Origin: Planctomycetota bacterium
GTDB taxonomy: Bacteria; Planctomycetota; UBA1135; GCA-002686595
Assembly: GCA_030746555.1 (NCBI GenBank)
Contig: JASLMK010000130.1
Span: forward strand, 1-64,000
Reading direction: 5' to 3'
Length of the DNA stretch: 64,000 nt
Position 1 is the first letter of the stretch. Each line of letters opens with the position of its first letter. A program made the position numbers and the translations under genes. Shown here one piece after another: positions 12,464 through 17,410 of the stretch. A model generated the notes under the pieces. The model was not told the origin of the DNA, made no database searches, and was given only the letters and a program-made list of their open reading frames with translations.

Positions 12464-13297
12464 ATGCGACCCATCCGCTTCCTCCCGCTCGCCCTCACCC
12501 TCGTGCTCGTCCCCGCTTGCGGGGGGGGGGACGCTGACCGGCAGGGCGTGGCCGCCTCCGAGACGCCCGAGCCCTCCGGCAGCGAGAACGCTGCCGCCAA
12601 GACTTCGTCGGCCCCGGCGGCGGCACCCAAGCCCTGGGATCCCGGGGCCGGGGTGGCGCGGGTCAGCGGCAAGATCGCCTTCGACGGCGATCCTCCCCGG
12701 CGGCGCAAGGTCGACATGGGCAGCGACGCCCAGTGCAGCGACCTCCACGAGGAGAAGCCCCTCGACGAGTCGGTGATCGTCGGTGCCGGGGGCGGCCTGG
12801 CCAACGTGTTCGTCTGGGTTCGCAAGGGCCTGGACGCCTGGGAGTTCACGCCCCCCAGCGAGCCCGCGACGATCGACCAACAGGGGTGCGCCTACGTTCC
12901 CCACGTCCTCGGCGCCCAAGTCGGGCAGCCCGTCGAGATCCGCAACAGCGACCCGATCACCCACAACGTCCACGGCTACAGCAAGAAGAACACCGGCTTC
13001 AACCAGACCCAGGCTCCCGGCTCGAGCTCCATCTCCAAGGTGTTCGCTCGAGAGGAGGTCTTCGTGACCCTCAAGTGCGACATCCACGGCTGGATGAACA
13101 CGAACCTCGCCATCGTCGAGCATCCCTTCTTCGCCGTCAGCGGCGAGGACGGCGGGTTCGATCTCGGGCTCCTTCCCCCGGGGGACTACCAGGTCGCCGC
13201 ACGCCACGAGGTCTTCGGGCTGCAGAAGCAGGACGTCACCATCGGCCCCGACGGCGCCGCGCAGAACCTGGAGTTCCGCTTCACGGAGGAGGACTGA
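12464..13297 (+). CDS. Cupredoxin-like lipoprotein of the oxidase operon
   Basis: 277 residues from the ATG at 12464, with AGGAG six bases upstream. It has a lipoprotein signal with VPAC (lipid Cys19), followed by a low-complexity Ala/Pro/Ser tether to about residue 60. The core resembles a plastocyanin-type cupredoxin: THNVHGY (His167, His170) and LKCDIHGWM, where Cys205, His208 and Met211 give the Cys-x2-His-x2-Met type-1 copper pattern. The end (LLPPGDYQVAARHE) resembles a carboxypeptidase-regulatory-like fold. Its stop is 2 bases before the coxB start, so it probably acts with the oxidase as a membrane-tethered electron carrier or copper carrier (inference). The Gly codons after the lipid Cys form a run of ten G (12521-12530). 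Confidence 0.8.
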   Translation: MRPIRFLPLALTLVLVPACGGGDADRQGVAASETPEPSGSENAAAKTSSAPAAAPKPWDPGAGVARVSGKIAFDGDPPRRRKVDMGSDAQCSDLHEEKPLDESVIVGAGGGLANVFVWVRKGLDAWEFTPPSEPATIDQQGCAYVPHVLGAQVGQPVEIRNSDPITHNVHGYSKKNTGFNQTQAPGSSSISKVFAREEVFVTLKCDIHGWMNTNLAIVEHPFFAVSGEDGGFDLGLLPPGDYQVAARHEVFGLQKQDVTIGPDGAAQNLEFRFTEED

Positions 13298-13299
13298 CG

Positions 13300-14118
13300 A
13301 TGAGCACCAGCGGTGACGCACCCCGCTCGCCGGCCTTCGGGCTGCTCTTCTACCTGTTGGGAGCCCTGGTGGTAGCCGGATTCGCCCTCGGCTGGCTGCC
13401 AGAGGTCTCCTCCGCCCACGGCCACGGCATCGACCGGGTGATCAAGTACCTCCTGCTCACCACGGGAACCCTCTTCCTCGTGGGCTGCGTGGTCCTGGGA
13501 CGGTTCATCCTGACCTACGGGAAGGGCGAGGCCCAAGAGGGCGCCCTGGTGTCCGAACGCACCCAGCTTCTGTGGGCCGTGGTACCCGTGCTCTTGATGT
13601 GCGCCATCTCCGAGGTGGGCGTCCTCGTCATGGGCCTGCCGGTCTTCGGCCAGGTCTACGGCGAGGCCGACGAGGACGCCTTCGAGGTCGAGGTCGTCGG
13701 GAAGCAGTTCGAGTGGCTGATCCGCTACCCCGGCCCCGACGGGGTCTTCGGGGAGGTGGACCACGACAAGGTCCACGACTCCCGCAATCCCCTGGGGCTC
13801 GTCAAGAGCGACCCCGCGGCACGCGACGACGTGGTCGTGCGCGGGCAGTTGCATGTCCCCGTCGACCGCATGTCCATCGTGCACCTGCGGTCGTTGGACG
13901 TCATCCACTCCTTCACCGTGCCGTTGTTCCGGTCCAAGCAGGACACCCTGCCCGGGTACACGGCCTACACACAGTTCATCCCCGAGGCCGAGGGCACCTT
14001 CGAGCTCGCCTGCGCCGAGCTCTGCGGTCTGGGCCACTACCGCATGCAGGGGACCGTCACCGTCCAGAGCGAAGAGGCCCTCGCCGAGTGGCTGAGCGAG
14101 CAGGAACCATGGCTGTAG
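13300..14118 (+). CDS. coxB: Cytochrome c oxidase subunit II
   Basis: 272 residues. Hydrophobic segments lie near residues 13-33, 46-67 and 86-110, then a periplasmic domain with the CuA site: VIHSF His plus CAELCGLGHYRM (Cys238, Glu240, Cys242, His246, Met249). It accepts electrons from a c-type cytochrome or cupredoxin and passes them to heme a in subunit I. There is no fused cytochrome c domain at the C-terminus, unlike classic caa3 subunit II, so an external donor is required. The ATG at 13300 follows the lipoprotein stop by 2 bases; the 3' end overlaps coxA by 10 bases. Confidence 0.95.
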   Translation: MSTSGDAPRSPAFGLLFYLLGALVVAGFALGWLPEVSSAHGHGIDRVIKYLLLTTGTLFLVGCVVLGRFILTYGKGEAQEGALVSERTQLLWAVVPVLLMCAISEVGVLVMGLPVFGQVYGEADEDAFEVEVVGKQFEWLIRYPGPDGVFGEVDHDKVHDSRNPLGLVKSDPAARDDVVVRGQLHVPVDRMSIVHLRSLDVIHSFTVPLFRSKQDTLPGYTAYTQFIPEAEGTFELACAELCGLGHYRMQGTVTVQSEEALAEWLSEQEPWL

Positions 14119-15806
14119 CACAAGAGCACGCCCCGCAGAGCTTCGTCTCGAAGTACGTCTTCAGCACCGATCACAAGATGATCGGTCTGCAGTACATCCT
14201 GACCGCCCTGTTCATGGGGATCGTGGGGAGCGCCCTCGCGGTCCTCATCCGCACCCAGATCACCTGGCCCGAGAAGGCCCTGGTGACGCCGGAGAGCTAC
14301 ATCAGCCTCGTGACGATGCACGGGACCATCATGGTCTTCTTCGTCGTCTCCCTGGCCCTGGTCAGCGGCTTCGGGAACTTCCTGATCCCTCTCATGCTCG
14401 GCGCGCGGGACATGGCGTACCCGTTCCTGAACATGCTCTCCTACTGGACGGTCGTCCCCGGGTGCATCCTGATCCTGGCGTCGTTCTTGGTGGAGGGCGG
14501 CGCCGCGGCCGCGGGCTGGACCGCCTATCCGCCCCTCTCGGCGCTGCCGGAGGCGGTGCCGGGATCGGGCCTGGGACAGACCCTGTGGCTCCTCGCGATG
14601 GCGCTCTTCATCGCCTCCTTCACCATGGGCGGTCTGAACTACATCGCCACGATCCTCAACTGCCGCGCCCGGGGCATGTCCTTGATGCGCATGCCGCTGA
14701 CGGTCTGGACCTACTTCATGTCGGCCATCCTCGGCGTCCTGGCGTTCCCCCCGCTGACAGCCGCGGCCATCATGCTGCTGCTGGACCGCCACGGCGGCAC
14801 GAGCTTCTTCCTCCCCGGCGGCCTCGTGTTCGGCAACGAGACCCTCCCCCACGAGGGCGGGACGCCCCTCCTGTTCCAGCACCTGTTCTGGTTCCTCGGG
14901 CACCCCGAGGTGTACGTCCTGGTGCTGCCGGGAATCGGCATCACCTTCGACATCCTGGCGACCTTCGCCAGGCGCCCCATCTTCGGCTACAAGACCTCGG
15001 TCTGGGCCCTGATCGTGGTCGGGTTCCTGAGCATGATCGTCTGGGGCCACCACATGTACGTGACGGGGATGAACCCCTACGTCGGCGAGTACTTCTCCAT
15101 CGCGACCGTGCTCATCACCGCGCCCTTCGCCGTGCTTGGGCTGAATCTGGTGGCAAGCCTGTGGCGCAGTCGGATCCGCATGGAGGTCCCGATGTACTGG
15201 GCCCTGGGGACGATCGCCGTCATCGGCCTGGGAGGCTTCGGCGGCCTGTTCCTGGCCACTTCGATCTCCGACATCTACTTCCACGAGTCGTTCTTCGTGG
15301 TGGGGCACTTCCATCTGATGATCGGTGTGGTGACCGTGCTCTCGACCCTGGGCGGCCTGTACCACTGGTTCCCGAAGATGTTCGGTCGCAAGATGAACGC
15401 GGGACTGGCGAGGCTCCACTTCTGGACGACGTACGTGCCGATCGTGGCCGTGTTCGCCCTGATGCACTTCCAGGGTCTCTCCGGGCTCCTGCGGCGCTAC
15501 TACGACCACACGATCTACGACTTCCAGAGCCCGGGGATCGCCCTGGCCCTGCCGATCACCGTACTGTCCTACGTGGTCACGGCCTCGCAACTGGTGTTCG
15601 TCTACAACTTCTTCGTCAGCATGAAGCGCGGCGAGCAGGCCTCGGACAACCCTTGGAACGCGACGACCCTGGAGTGGACCACACCCTCGCCCGCGCCCCA
15701 CGGCAACTGGCCCGGCGCCCTCCCCGTCGTGGACCGCCACCCCTACGACTACGATCCCTCGGCACCGGCCGAGGGTGACTTCAAGCCCCAGGGAACGGTC
15801 GCGTGA
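14109..15806 (+). CDS. coxA: Cytochrome c oxidase subunit I
   Basis: 565 residues, twelve-helix heme-copper oxidase catalytic subunit. All metal ligands are present: His71 and His402 for heme a, His400 for heme a3, and His265, His314 and His315 for CuB. Tyr269 in HPEVY is the cross-linked tyrosine, and Glu267 in the same motif marks an A1-type D channel. It reduces O2 to water and pumps protons across the cytoplasmic membrane. Start ATG overlaps the end of coxB by 10 bases, and its TGA overlaps the next gene's GTG, so the operon is translationally coupled throughout. Confidence 0.97.
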   Translation: MAVAQEHAPQSFVSKYVFSTDHKMIGLQYILTALFMGIVGSALAVLIRTQITWPEKALVTPESYISLVTMHGTIMVFFVVSLALVSGFGNFLIPLMLGARDMAYPFLNMLSYWTVVPGCILILASFLVEGGAAAAGWTAYPPLSALPEAVPGSGLGQTLWLLAMALFIASFTMGGLNYIATILNCRARGMSLMRMPLTVWTYFMSAILGVLAFPPLTAAAIMLLLDRHGGTSFFLPGGLVFGNETLPHEGGTPLLFQHLFWFLGHPEVYVLVLPGIGITFDILATFARRPIFGYKTSVWALIVVGFLSMIVWGHHMYVTGMNPYVGEYFSIATVLITAPFAVLGLNLVASLWRSRIRMEVPMYWALGTIAVIGLGGFGGLFLATSISDIYFHESFFVVGHFHLMIGVVTVLSTLGGLYHWFPKMFGRKMNAGLARLHFWTTYVPIVAVFALMHFQGLSGLLRRYYDHTIYDFQSPGIALALPITVLSYVVTASQLVFVYNFFVSMKRGEQASDNPWNATTLEWTTPSPAPHGNWPGALPVVDRHPYDYDPSAPAEGDFKPQGTVA

Positions 15807-16306
15807 GCCAGACCGCCGCCCTGTCCCGGCCGCGGGCCGGCGACGTCCTCTTCCTGGTCCTACTGGGCGTCGTCGTCATGCTCTTCGCGGGCTTCACGGC
15901 CGCCTACATGATCCGCCGCCCCTCTCCGGACTGGACTCCGGTGGCGATCCCCGCGTGGAGCTGGATCGGGACCGGCTTCCTGGCGGTGAGCAGCGTCACC
16001 TTGGAGTTCGCCCGCAAGCGCGAGAGCGCGGGCCTGACCCGGGTCAGCCTGCTGTTGGGCTGTGGGTTCCTCGCGGCTCAGCTCTTCTCCTGGAGCGAGC
16101 TGGCCCAGGGCGGGACAACCCTGCCGACGACGCCCCACGGCGCCTTCTACTTCATGCTCTCCGCCGTCCACGGACTGCACCTGGTGGGCGGCCTGTGCGC
16201 CCTGGTCTGGGTGACCCTGCGCGAGCGTCCGGTGCGGCTGGTCGCCGCCTACTGGCACTTCATGGGCCTCATCTGGCTGTACGTCCTCTTCCTCCTCGCC
16301 TCCTGA
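15803..16306 (+). CDS. Cytochrome c oxidase subunit III-like protein (first copy)
   Basis: 167 residues from a GTG at 15803 that overlaps the coxA stop (GTGA). About five transmembrane helices (residues 15-36, 47-66, 80-98, 113-137, 147-165). The segment HGAFYFMLSAVHGLHLVGG and the end AAYWHFMGLIWLYVLFLLAS are COX3 hallmarks. It is shorter than usual and lacks the first two helices of seven-helix forms, as in the five-helix type. A second subunit-III gene follows 13 bases later, so the two may sit together in one complex or one may act in assembly. No heme or copper ligands are expected in this subunit. Confidence 0.85.
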   Translation: MSQTAALSRPRAGDVLFLVLLGVVVMLFAGFTAAYMIRRPSPDWTPVAIPAWSWIGTGFLAVSSVTLEFARKRESAGLTRVSLLLGCGFLAAQLFSWSELAQGGTTLPTTPHGAFYFMLSAVHGLHLVGGLCALVWVTLRERPVRLVAAYWHFMGLIWLYVLFLLAS

Positions 16307-16319
16307 ACCCGAGCACGCC

Positions 16320-16925
16320 ATGACCGAAGTCCAAGCCGTCGCCGCCGACGAGTTGGAGCCCCCCATCTTCGAGATCAGCTGGCAGAAGCTGATGATGTGG
16401 GCCTTCATCATCACCGACGCCCTGCTCTTCTCCGGCTACCTGGCCAGCTACATGTTCACTCGCCTGGCGAGCGACATCGGCTGGCCCGTCCAGAGTGAGG
16501 TCTTCGACATGAACTTCATCACCCTGATGACGTTCACGCTGATCACCAGCTCCGCGACCATGGCCTGCGCCGTCAAGGCCGCTAGTGACGGTGATCCGAA
16601 GCTGACGCGCCGCTATCTCCTGCTGACCACGCTGATCGGCCTGGCCTTCTTGGGGATGCAGGCCGTCGAGTGGAGCCACTTCATCGGCGACGGCGCGCGC
16701 CTGACGGGCAACCCCTGGGGGACCGGCGCCTTCTCCGCCTACTTCTTCATGATGACCGGCTTCCACGGGACCCACGTCCTCATCGGAGTGGTGATCCTCC
16801 TGATCACGTTCCTGCGGACCTCGTCCGACCGCCTGATCGCCGACAAGGTCGAGGTCGTCGGCCTGTACTGGCACTTCGTGGACCTGGTCTGGGTCTTCAT
16901 CTTCGGCTGCTTCTACCTCCTCTAG
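16320..16925 (+). CDS. coxC: Cytochrome c oxidase subunit III
   Basis: 201 residues, five predicted helices, the usual size for subunit III of caa3-type oxidases. Family signs: KLMMWAFIITDALLFSGYLA at the first helix, AFLGMQAVEWSHFI, YFFMMTGFHGTHVLIGVVI and GLYWHFVDLVWVFIFGCFYL at the end. Subunit III stabilises subunit I and keeps proton uptake going through the D channel. Gap to the next gene is 9 bases. This copy is closer to the canonical family than the preceding gene. Confidence 0.92.
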   Translation: MTEVQAVAADELEPPIFEISWQKLMMWAFIITDALLFSGYLASYMFTRLASDIGWPVQSEVFDMNFITLMTFTLITSSATMACAVKAASDGDPKLTRRYLLLTTLIGLAFLGMQAVEWSHFIGDGARLTGNPWGTGAFSAYFFMMTGFHGTHVLIGVVILLITFLRTSSDRLIADKVEVVGLYWHFVDLVWVFIFGCFYLL

Positions 16926-16934
16926 GAACCCGTC

Positions 16935-17195
16935 ATGTCCCAGAACGCCTCCCACTCCTACGGGTCCTACTGGATCGCCTGGTTCGTGCTGCTCCTGATC
17001 ACCCTGGCGATGGTGTTCATCGGCAGCAAGCCGGTGCTGGCGGCTGGGATGGTCGTCAAGGCGGCGATCATCGCCATGTTCTTCATGCACCTCGCCTTCG
17101 AGAAGAAGAGCCTGGTCTACACGGTGCTGATCGGCATCTTCGCCACCACGGCCGTGCTGGTGGTGCTGGTGGCCCCCGACGGGGCGGCGATGTGA
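16935..17195 (+). CDS. Cytochrome c oxidase subunit IV family protein
   Basis: 86 residues with three hydrophobic helices (about 11-31, 36-56, 61-81). The middle helix carries KAAIIAMFFMHLAFEKKS, the signature of the caa3-type subunit IV family (COX4_pro). It is a small accessory subunit of the oxidase. The ATG at 16935 follows subunit III closely. Its stop TGA is shared with the GTG start of the next frame (GTGA), the same coupling seen between coxA and the first subunit-III gene. Confidence 0.9.
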   Translation: MSQNASHSYGSYWIAWFVLLLITLAMVFIGSKPVLAAGMVVKAAIIAMFFMHLAFEKKSLVYTVLIGIFATTAVLVVLVAPDGAAM

Positions 17196-17410
17196 GGCGC
17201 TCCCTCCTGCTCCTGGTCGTCTGCGCCCTCTGGTGGTGCGAACCGGCCATGGCCCAGGGCTGCTGACCGCGTCTGGGGGAGAGCCCCGAGACCGCGGGCG
17301 TGGCCCGCGGCCTGCAACAGGCCACCCTGGTCCTGCTGTTCGTCCCCTGGCTGATGGTGGGCGGGACGACCCTGTGGTACTGGCTGCGCTACGGACGACA
17401 CGCCGAGTGA
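17192..17410 (+). CDS. Candidate selenoprotein: small membrane protein with a Cys-Sec pair
   Basis: One continuous 72-codon frame, GTG at 17192 to TGA at 17408-17410, interrupted only by an in-frame TGA at 17264-17266 (codon 25). Residues 1-24 are a signal peptide ending in AMAQGC; after the TGA the frame reads PRLGESPETAGVARGLQQ and then a transmembrane helix (about 45-64, LVLLFVPWLMVGGTTLWYWL) with a basic end. If TGA is selenocysteine the protein has a vicinal Cys24-Sec25 pair outside the membrane, a redox or metal-binding site. The start overlaps the subunit-IV stop. Hairpins resembling a bacterial SECIS follow the TGA. Alternatives: TGA is a true stop giving a useless 24-residue peptide, a mutation, or a read error. 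The Sec machinery is not in this window. Confidence 0.6.
17267..17310 (+). promoter_or_regulatory. Candidate bacterial SECIS hairpins after the in-frame TGA
   Basis: Two partly exclusive hairpins follow the TGA. The first pairs 17267-17278 with 17284-17297 (12 bp, two single-base bulges on the 3' side) around a GAGAG loop. The second is a perfect 8-bp stem (17292-17299/17303-17310) with a GTG loop whose first G is 34 bases after the TGA. A small loop with G among its first two bases about 16-37 bases from the codon is the known bacterial pattern. GC-rich DNA forms hairpins easily, so this is support, not proof. Confidence 0.4.

Follow-up and report, generated by a model that had tools for sequence, protein, structure and literature searches.

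The reading frame at positions 17192-17410 on the forward strand of the window (the whole 64,000-nucleotide stretch of DNA, from an uncultured planctomycete, that was analysed) almost certainly encodes a selenoprotein in which an in-frame UGA codon is read as selenocysteine (Sec), a conclusion drawn without protein or selenium data. The assignment of the whole gene, from its GTG start to its TGA stop, as a protein of 72 residues with Sec at residue 25 is based on the frame, its homologues and the selection acting on it. Frame, conservation, fit to a selenocysteine insertion (SECIS) model, Sec machinery and gene neighbourhood were computed, while Sec insertion, signal cleavage and a redox role are inferred from them. 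We consider it very likely that the best overall explanation is SECIS-directed insertion of Sec into an exported Cys-Sec membrane anchor that would supply a thiol/selenol centre in oxidase biogenesis.

The GTG start (17192-17194) overlaps the TGA stop of cytochrome oxidase subunit IV (17193-17195) by four bases (GTGA), and the frame continues for 72 codons to 17407, followed by a terminal TGA at 17408-17410. Codon 24 is TGC (Cys24, 17261-17263) and codon 25 is the in-frame TGA (Sec25, 17264-17266), which together make up a vicinal pair at 17261-17266; this arrangement, including the real stop at its end, had been described in the original prediction and was confirmed. With the TGA read as U, the window protein is (M)RRSLLLLVVCALWWCEPAMA-QGCUPRLGESPETAGVARGLQQATLVLLFVPWLMVGGTTLWYWLRYGRHAE. 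Its hydrophobic, signal-like first segment ends in AMA-Q ahead of Cys24, and on the basis of hydrophobicity and the AxA pattern a signal peptide is predicted at residues 1-21 (17192-17254), with the AMA end directly before Gln22 and cleavage inferred. Hydrophobicity rises again to a peak over residues 44-62 and places a transmembrane helix at about residues 43-63 (17318-17380). Both of the membrane features foreseen for this protein are predicted from its sequence. The gene directly upstream on the same strand is that of subunit IV (16935-17195; Pfam COX4_pro, E 4e-6, slightly below the cut-off). The rest of the oxidase operon, also on the forward strand, extends over 13294-16925 with matches to Pfam COX2, COX1 and COX3, and consists of subunit II (13294-14118), subunit I (14118-15806), a subunit III-like protein (15803-16306) and subunit III (16320-16925); its first start codons are undetermined. 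The two consecutive subunit III-like genes, 15803-16306 and 16320-16925, show 34% mutual identity over about 160 residues.

A protein query of 101 related genomes recovered the window's own gene and, in addition, single-TGA copies of it in G001 (source of loci L009 and L011), G059, G052 and G034. Two other matches from this first search, G035:C53 and G040:C14, were not homologues and were dropped. A profile built from these five members brought out further ones among 392 genomes of the phylum, several with two consecutive TGA codons. With a larger profile, 109 of the 392 genomes matched, the weakest of these matches being due to chance. Homologues are found across the Planctomycetota at 26-86% identity, with the position kept as Cys-TGA or as tandem TGA-TGA, and homologues from other genera and families share the TGA. 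The internal stops of credible family matches are all TGA, and the aligned residues around the TGA are near invariant (Q-x-C-U-P-R-x-G-x-x-P-E-T-A). No family members were found in a scan of IMG/VR.

The members fall into two groups, which would be two branches of one planctomycete family. Group A contains 18 genes, 8 with Cys-Sec and 10 with Sec-Sec (TGA-TGA), and has the motif (C/U)U-P-x-L-G-x-D-P or close to it. Group B shows the motifs UxxC (mostly UPxCK..AV), CxxU (for example QCVMU) and CxxC (CPxCK). These counts cover readable members only, and Planctomycetota was the only phylum sampled. In a tree of the family, made from short sequences and largely unresolved in its branching outside group A, all group A genes fall together in a single clade (100/97), within which CU and UU replace each other through about four changes. 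Across the 18 group A genes, residue 24 is either Cys or TGA and residue 25 is never Cys, while Cys in place of Sec is met within group B (CxxC, UxxC, CxxU). At residue 25, the customary exchange between Sec and Cys can be seen only through paralogues, with no Cys-only group A gene in the sample. Because the sample holds no Cys version, group A could be missed by homology tools that need one. On contigs G113:C20 and G161:C197 (L088, L143, L086, L141), UxxC and UU genes lie about 5 kb apart, flanking the same oxidase cluster.

Hairpins were sought by a scripted scan using the published model of the bacterial SECIS, with an apical loop of 3-9 nt, a G in its first two places, a distance of 16-37 nt from the UGA and a folding energy of at most -7.5 kcal/mol (PMC13188914), and were compared against synonymous recodings. 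The predicted SECIS hairpin of the window gene, at 17292-17310 on the forward strand, has an 8-bp stem CCGCGGGC/GCCCGCGG and the apical loop GUG at 17300-17302, 33 nt past the UGA. This hairpin, CCGCGGGC-GUG-GCCCGCGG, meets the model with -17.2 kcal/mol (extended stem; P 0.018). A more proximal hairpin (about 17272-17292) was rejected as the SECIS because its loop, at just 13 nt from the UGA, falls short of the published minimum of 16; the next hairpin fits, and the assignment was made to 17292-17310. The energy limit is passed by 16 of the 18 genes of group A (with synonymous recodings as the reference, combined P 1.5e-8, the rows being related), although the significance per gene is modest (median P 0.06), and single genes also give a weak signal when the whole 45 nt are folded and their energy is compared with that of synonymous shuffles (mean z -0.9). 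In group A genes from other families the hairpin is mostly CCGCCU-GGN-AGGCGG or close to it at 35 nt, and many group B UxxC genes carry GGAGGC-GGUC-GCCUCC or close to it 17 nt past the UGA. The GGUC-loop hairpin of group B is encoded by the Ala-Val-Ala-Ser part that follows UxxCK (for example in L083, L086 and L097), where Val or Ile is present in 23/23 Sec forms as against 4/33 Cys forms among hand-listed members. As Val/Ile is nearly confined to the Sec forms, the conservation of Ala-Val-Ala-Ser may be that of RNA (the SECIS) rather than of protein. The Rfam model SECIS_1 (RF00031), which is eukaryotic, gave no match and was uninformative even in controls, and Rfam as a whole produced only chance matches over the window gene.

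Absence of Sec machinery from the host would have refuted the original prediction, and all of it was found: SelA (C108:3683-5050, 484 bits), SelB (C128, N-terminal part over the cut-off at 297 bits), SelD (G000:C126:434-1375, itself with one in-frame TGA) and tRNA-Sec (C126:3483-3576, 72.3 bits). SelB is present in 235 of the 392 genomes of the phylum sample; by hand count it occurs in 35/39 genomes with Sec forms versus 15/41 with Cys forms only (Fisher P 6e-7). Three of the four Sec-form genomes without SelB (G025, G362 and G421) have SelA, SelD and tRNA-Sec, and in the other, G300, which is 77% complete, recognisable SelA, SelB and tRNA-Sec were not found. G059 and G052, which lie outside the 392-genome sample, have no SelB over the cut-off; both have tRNA-Sec and SelD, and G059 also has SelA.

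These results bear on three other accounts of the TGA. If it were a true stop, the gene would be reduced to a 24-residue leader peptide and a separate downstream frame, and such a reading can point to an in-frame GTG at codon 36 and to the fact that TGA is an ordinary stop elsewhere in this genome, for example at 17193-17195 and 17408-17410. However, PRLGESPETAG, the stretch between the TGA and the GTG of codon 36, belongs to the most strongly conserved part of the protein, and the Cys-TGA or TGA-TGA pair is itself kept across families. Over the 39 codons past the TGA, the window and L009 differ with a dN of 0.02 and a dS of 0.49, indicating purifying selection; in frame 0 pS and pN are 0.36 and 0.02, and the other two frames (0.00 and 0.14-0.16) are without synonymous excess. 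Such a low dN relative to dS is not what a stop with noncoding DNA behind it would give, making this account highly improbable, and the conservation in frame 0 alone upholds the view that the part past the TGA is genuine protein and not a shadow. Nor do homologues have unrelated first 24 codons, which would have refuted the prediction, as they keep the signal peptide, the Cys and the post-TGA part. An assembly error or a decaying pseudogene is conceivable in a draft genome of 137 contigs, but it is the least credible of the three: the same TGA occurs in independent assemblies and in several families, which excludes a sequencing error and answers the objection that resequencing might remove the codon, and the dN and dS past the TGA speak against decay. 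Reassignment or readthrough of the TGA as another amino acid (such as Trp), with no selenium involved, cannot be distinguished by the frame alone; it is nonetheless very hard to sustain when ordinary genes here end in TGA, relatives have Cys in the TGA columns, Sec forms accompany SelB and the hairpins match the SECIS model.

The selenoprotein reading being preferred, the surroundings of the gene suggest where its product may act. Group A genes lie directly 3' of oxidase subunit IV in 18/18 loci. Sco and/or DUF420 are found in 46 of the 67 fetched group B loci, usually just upstream, and other cox genes in 8 more, giving 54/67 in total (hand counts; short flanks limit the rest), and Pfam confirms SCO1-SenC and DUF420 in representative group B loci. 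Homologues were thus met where they had been expected, beside oxidase genes and with the TGA conserved, and the Cys (CxxC) relatives belong to the paralogous group. DUF420 is CtaM, which is essential for aa3/caa3 assembly in Bacillus (PMC9145763), and a 2026 study that cites planctomycete Sco-DUF420 fusions proposed CtaM as a copper exporter to Sco (PMC13344008). In L107:1536-2906 a single open frame seems to fuse Sco and DUF420 domains just upstream of a CPMC family gene, and similar joined frames seem to lie upstream of such a gene in loci L109, L112 and L117.

Judging from position and chemistry, a role of the family in oxidase biogenesis is likely. In the proposed mechanism, the hairpin at 17292-17310 would direct SelB and tRNA-Sec to decode the UGA at 17264-17266 as Sec, and the product would be exported and its signal peptide cut before Gln22. 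What remains, a single-helix protein of about 50 residues, would stay in the membrane with the vicinal Cys-Sec pair at its periplasmic N-terminus. Of 56 group B members listed by hand, 55 have AxA-type residues directly ahead of the motif, so here too the mature protein would begin at, or a few residues from, the Cys/Sec pair. The exchange of Sec between both positions suggests a putative internal bridge of the S-Se, Se-Se or S-S type. A possible role for this membrane-tethered thiol/selenol centre could be to reduce cysteines in Sco or in the CuA site and so make copper loading possible, a target favoured because Sco, CuA and CtaM are neighbours. The earlier description of an exported Cys-Sec membrane protein concerned with oxidase assembly fits this anatomy and neighbourhood, and a copper or thiol role is still an inference.

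The same selenoprotein might instead use its Cys/Sec site to bind copper(I) and relay it to Sco or CuA. CPxC motifs of other proteins are known to bind soft metals, and the neighbouring Sco and DUF420/CtaM, the latter being the proposed copper exporter (PMC13344008), would suit such a relay. Adjacent residues (CU, UU), however, make a poor linear Cu(I) site, and redox catalysis is the general use of Sec; we therefore keep the copper relay as a second choice, possible but rather doubtful. Given a role in biogenesis, a reductase is our first choice over a copper carrier, by a slight preference and with no direct support.

The directly tandem UGA-UGA of ten sampled genomes is fairly likely to encode Sec-Sec, apparently with one downstream SECIS, which would place a vicinal diselenide at the mature N-terminus. 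The best argument that both codons are Sec is that the first TGA sits exactly on the Cys column. Where a tandem gene has its hairpin at 35 nt, 38 nt separate the first UGA from the loop, slightly more than the model allows. If both are decoded, double decoding and an adjacent Sec-Sec centre would each be new for bacteria, within reach of our literature search; nothing relevant on consecutive UGA codons or Sec-Sec in bacteria was found, journal coverage being partial.

Searches of Pfam and NCBIfam with both Sec and Cys forms returned no credible model, only weak or generic helix or anchor matches, and a 2026 inventory that covers 119 prokaryotic selenoprotein families (PMC13188914) has no such oxidase-operon family and no UU motif. 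No thioredoxin-like domain was matched in Pfam or PDB sequences for the window protein, with its 72 residues and two hydrophobic segments. A CtaJ profile match in PDB (E 0.31, helix only) was discounted. The family thus appears to be undescribed, as the original prediction held, within a literature search that subscription papers partly escaped and with only Planctomycetota searched; planctomycete selenoproteins have been reported in general (PMC4807772). It would be a phylum-wide selenoprotein family that annotation would cut at the UGA, and it would link selenium to the building of an aerobic respiratory oxidase. Sco and CtaM, proteins of unsettled chemistry, also gain a candidate partner. 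Natural tandem UGA-UGA genes offer material for studying how SelB decodes consecutive Sec codons, and the natural series UU, CU, UxxC, CxxU and CxxC in one small protein may reveal what selenium buys over sulphur.

Two Sec residues in one motif, as in the UU members of group A, are also known from UxxU selenoproteins, of which SelL is one. Others are the Prx-like and metal-binding NF041115 families (PMC13188914), though the Secs of UxxU families are two residues apart and those of the window family directly tandem. SaoC, SaoL, KCU-star, MbdU and the Csac_0668 family (PMC13188914, Table 1) share the adjacent Cys-Sec motif of the window protein, but none of the catalogued CU-motif selenoproteins is described as an oxidase-operon protein and no NCBIfam model fits the window family. 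Sco, PCuAC, CtaK and Cox11_CtaG (PMC9145763) are, like the window family, membrane-tied or periplasmic and encoded near oxidase genes, where they serve as CuA/CuB assembly factors; the window protein has no sequence match to them, is far smaller, and has one helix and its motif at the mature N-terminus. DUF420/CtaM adjoins group B genes and acts in oxidase assembly, but it has several helices and an unrelated sequence. TlpA is a thiol reductant of CuA/Sco with a thioredoxin fold. The chemistry that we propose resembles that of ResA (PMC9145763) and TlpA-type reductants of CuA/Sco, which use a thioredoxin fold where the window protein would have only about 50 residues and one helix.
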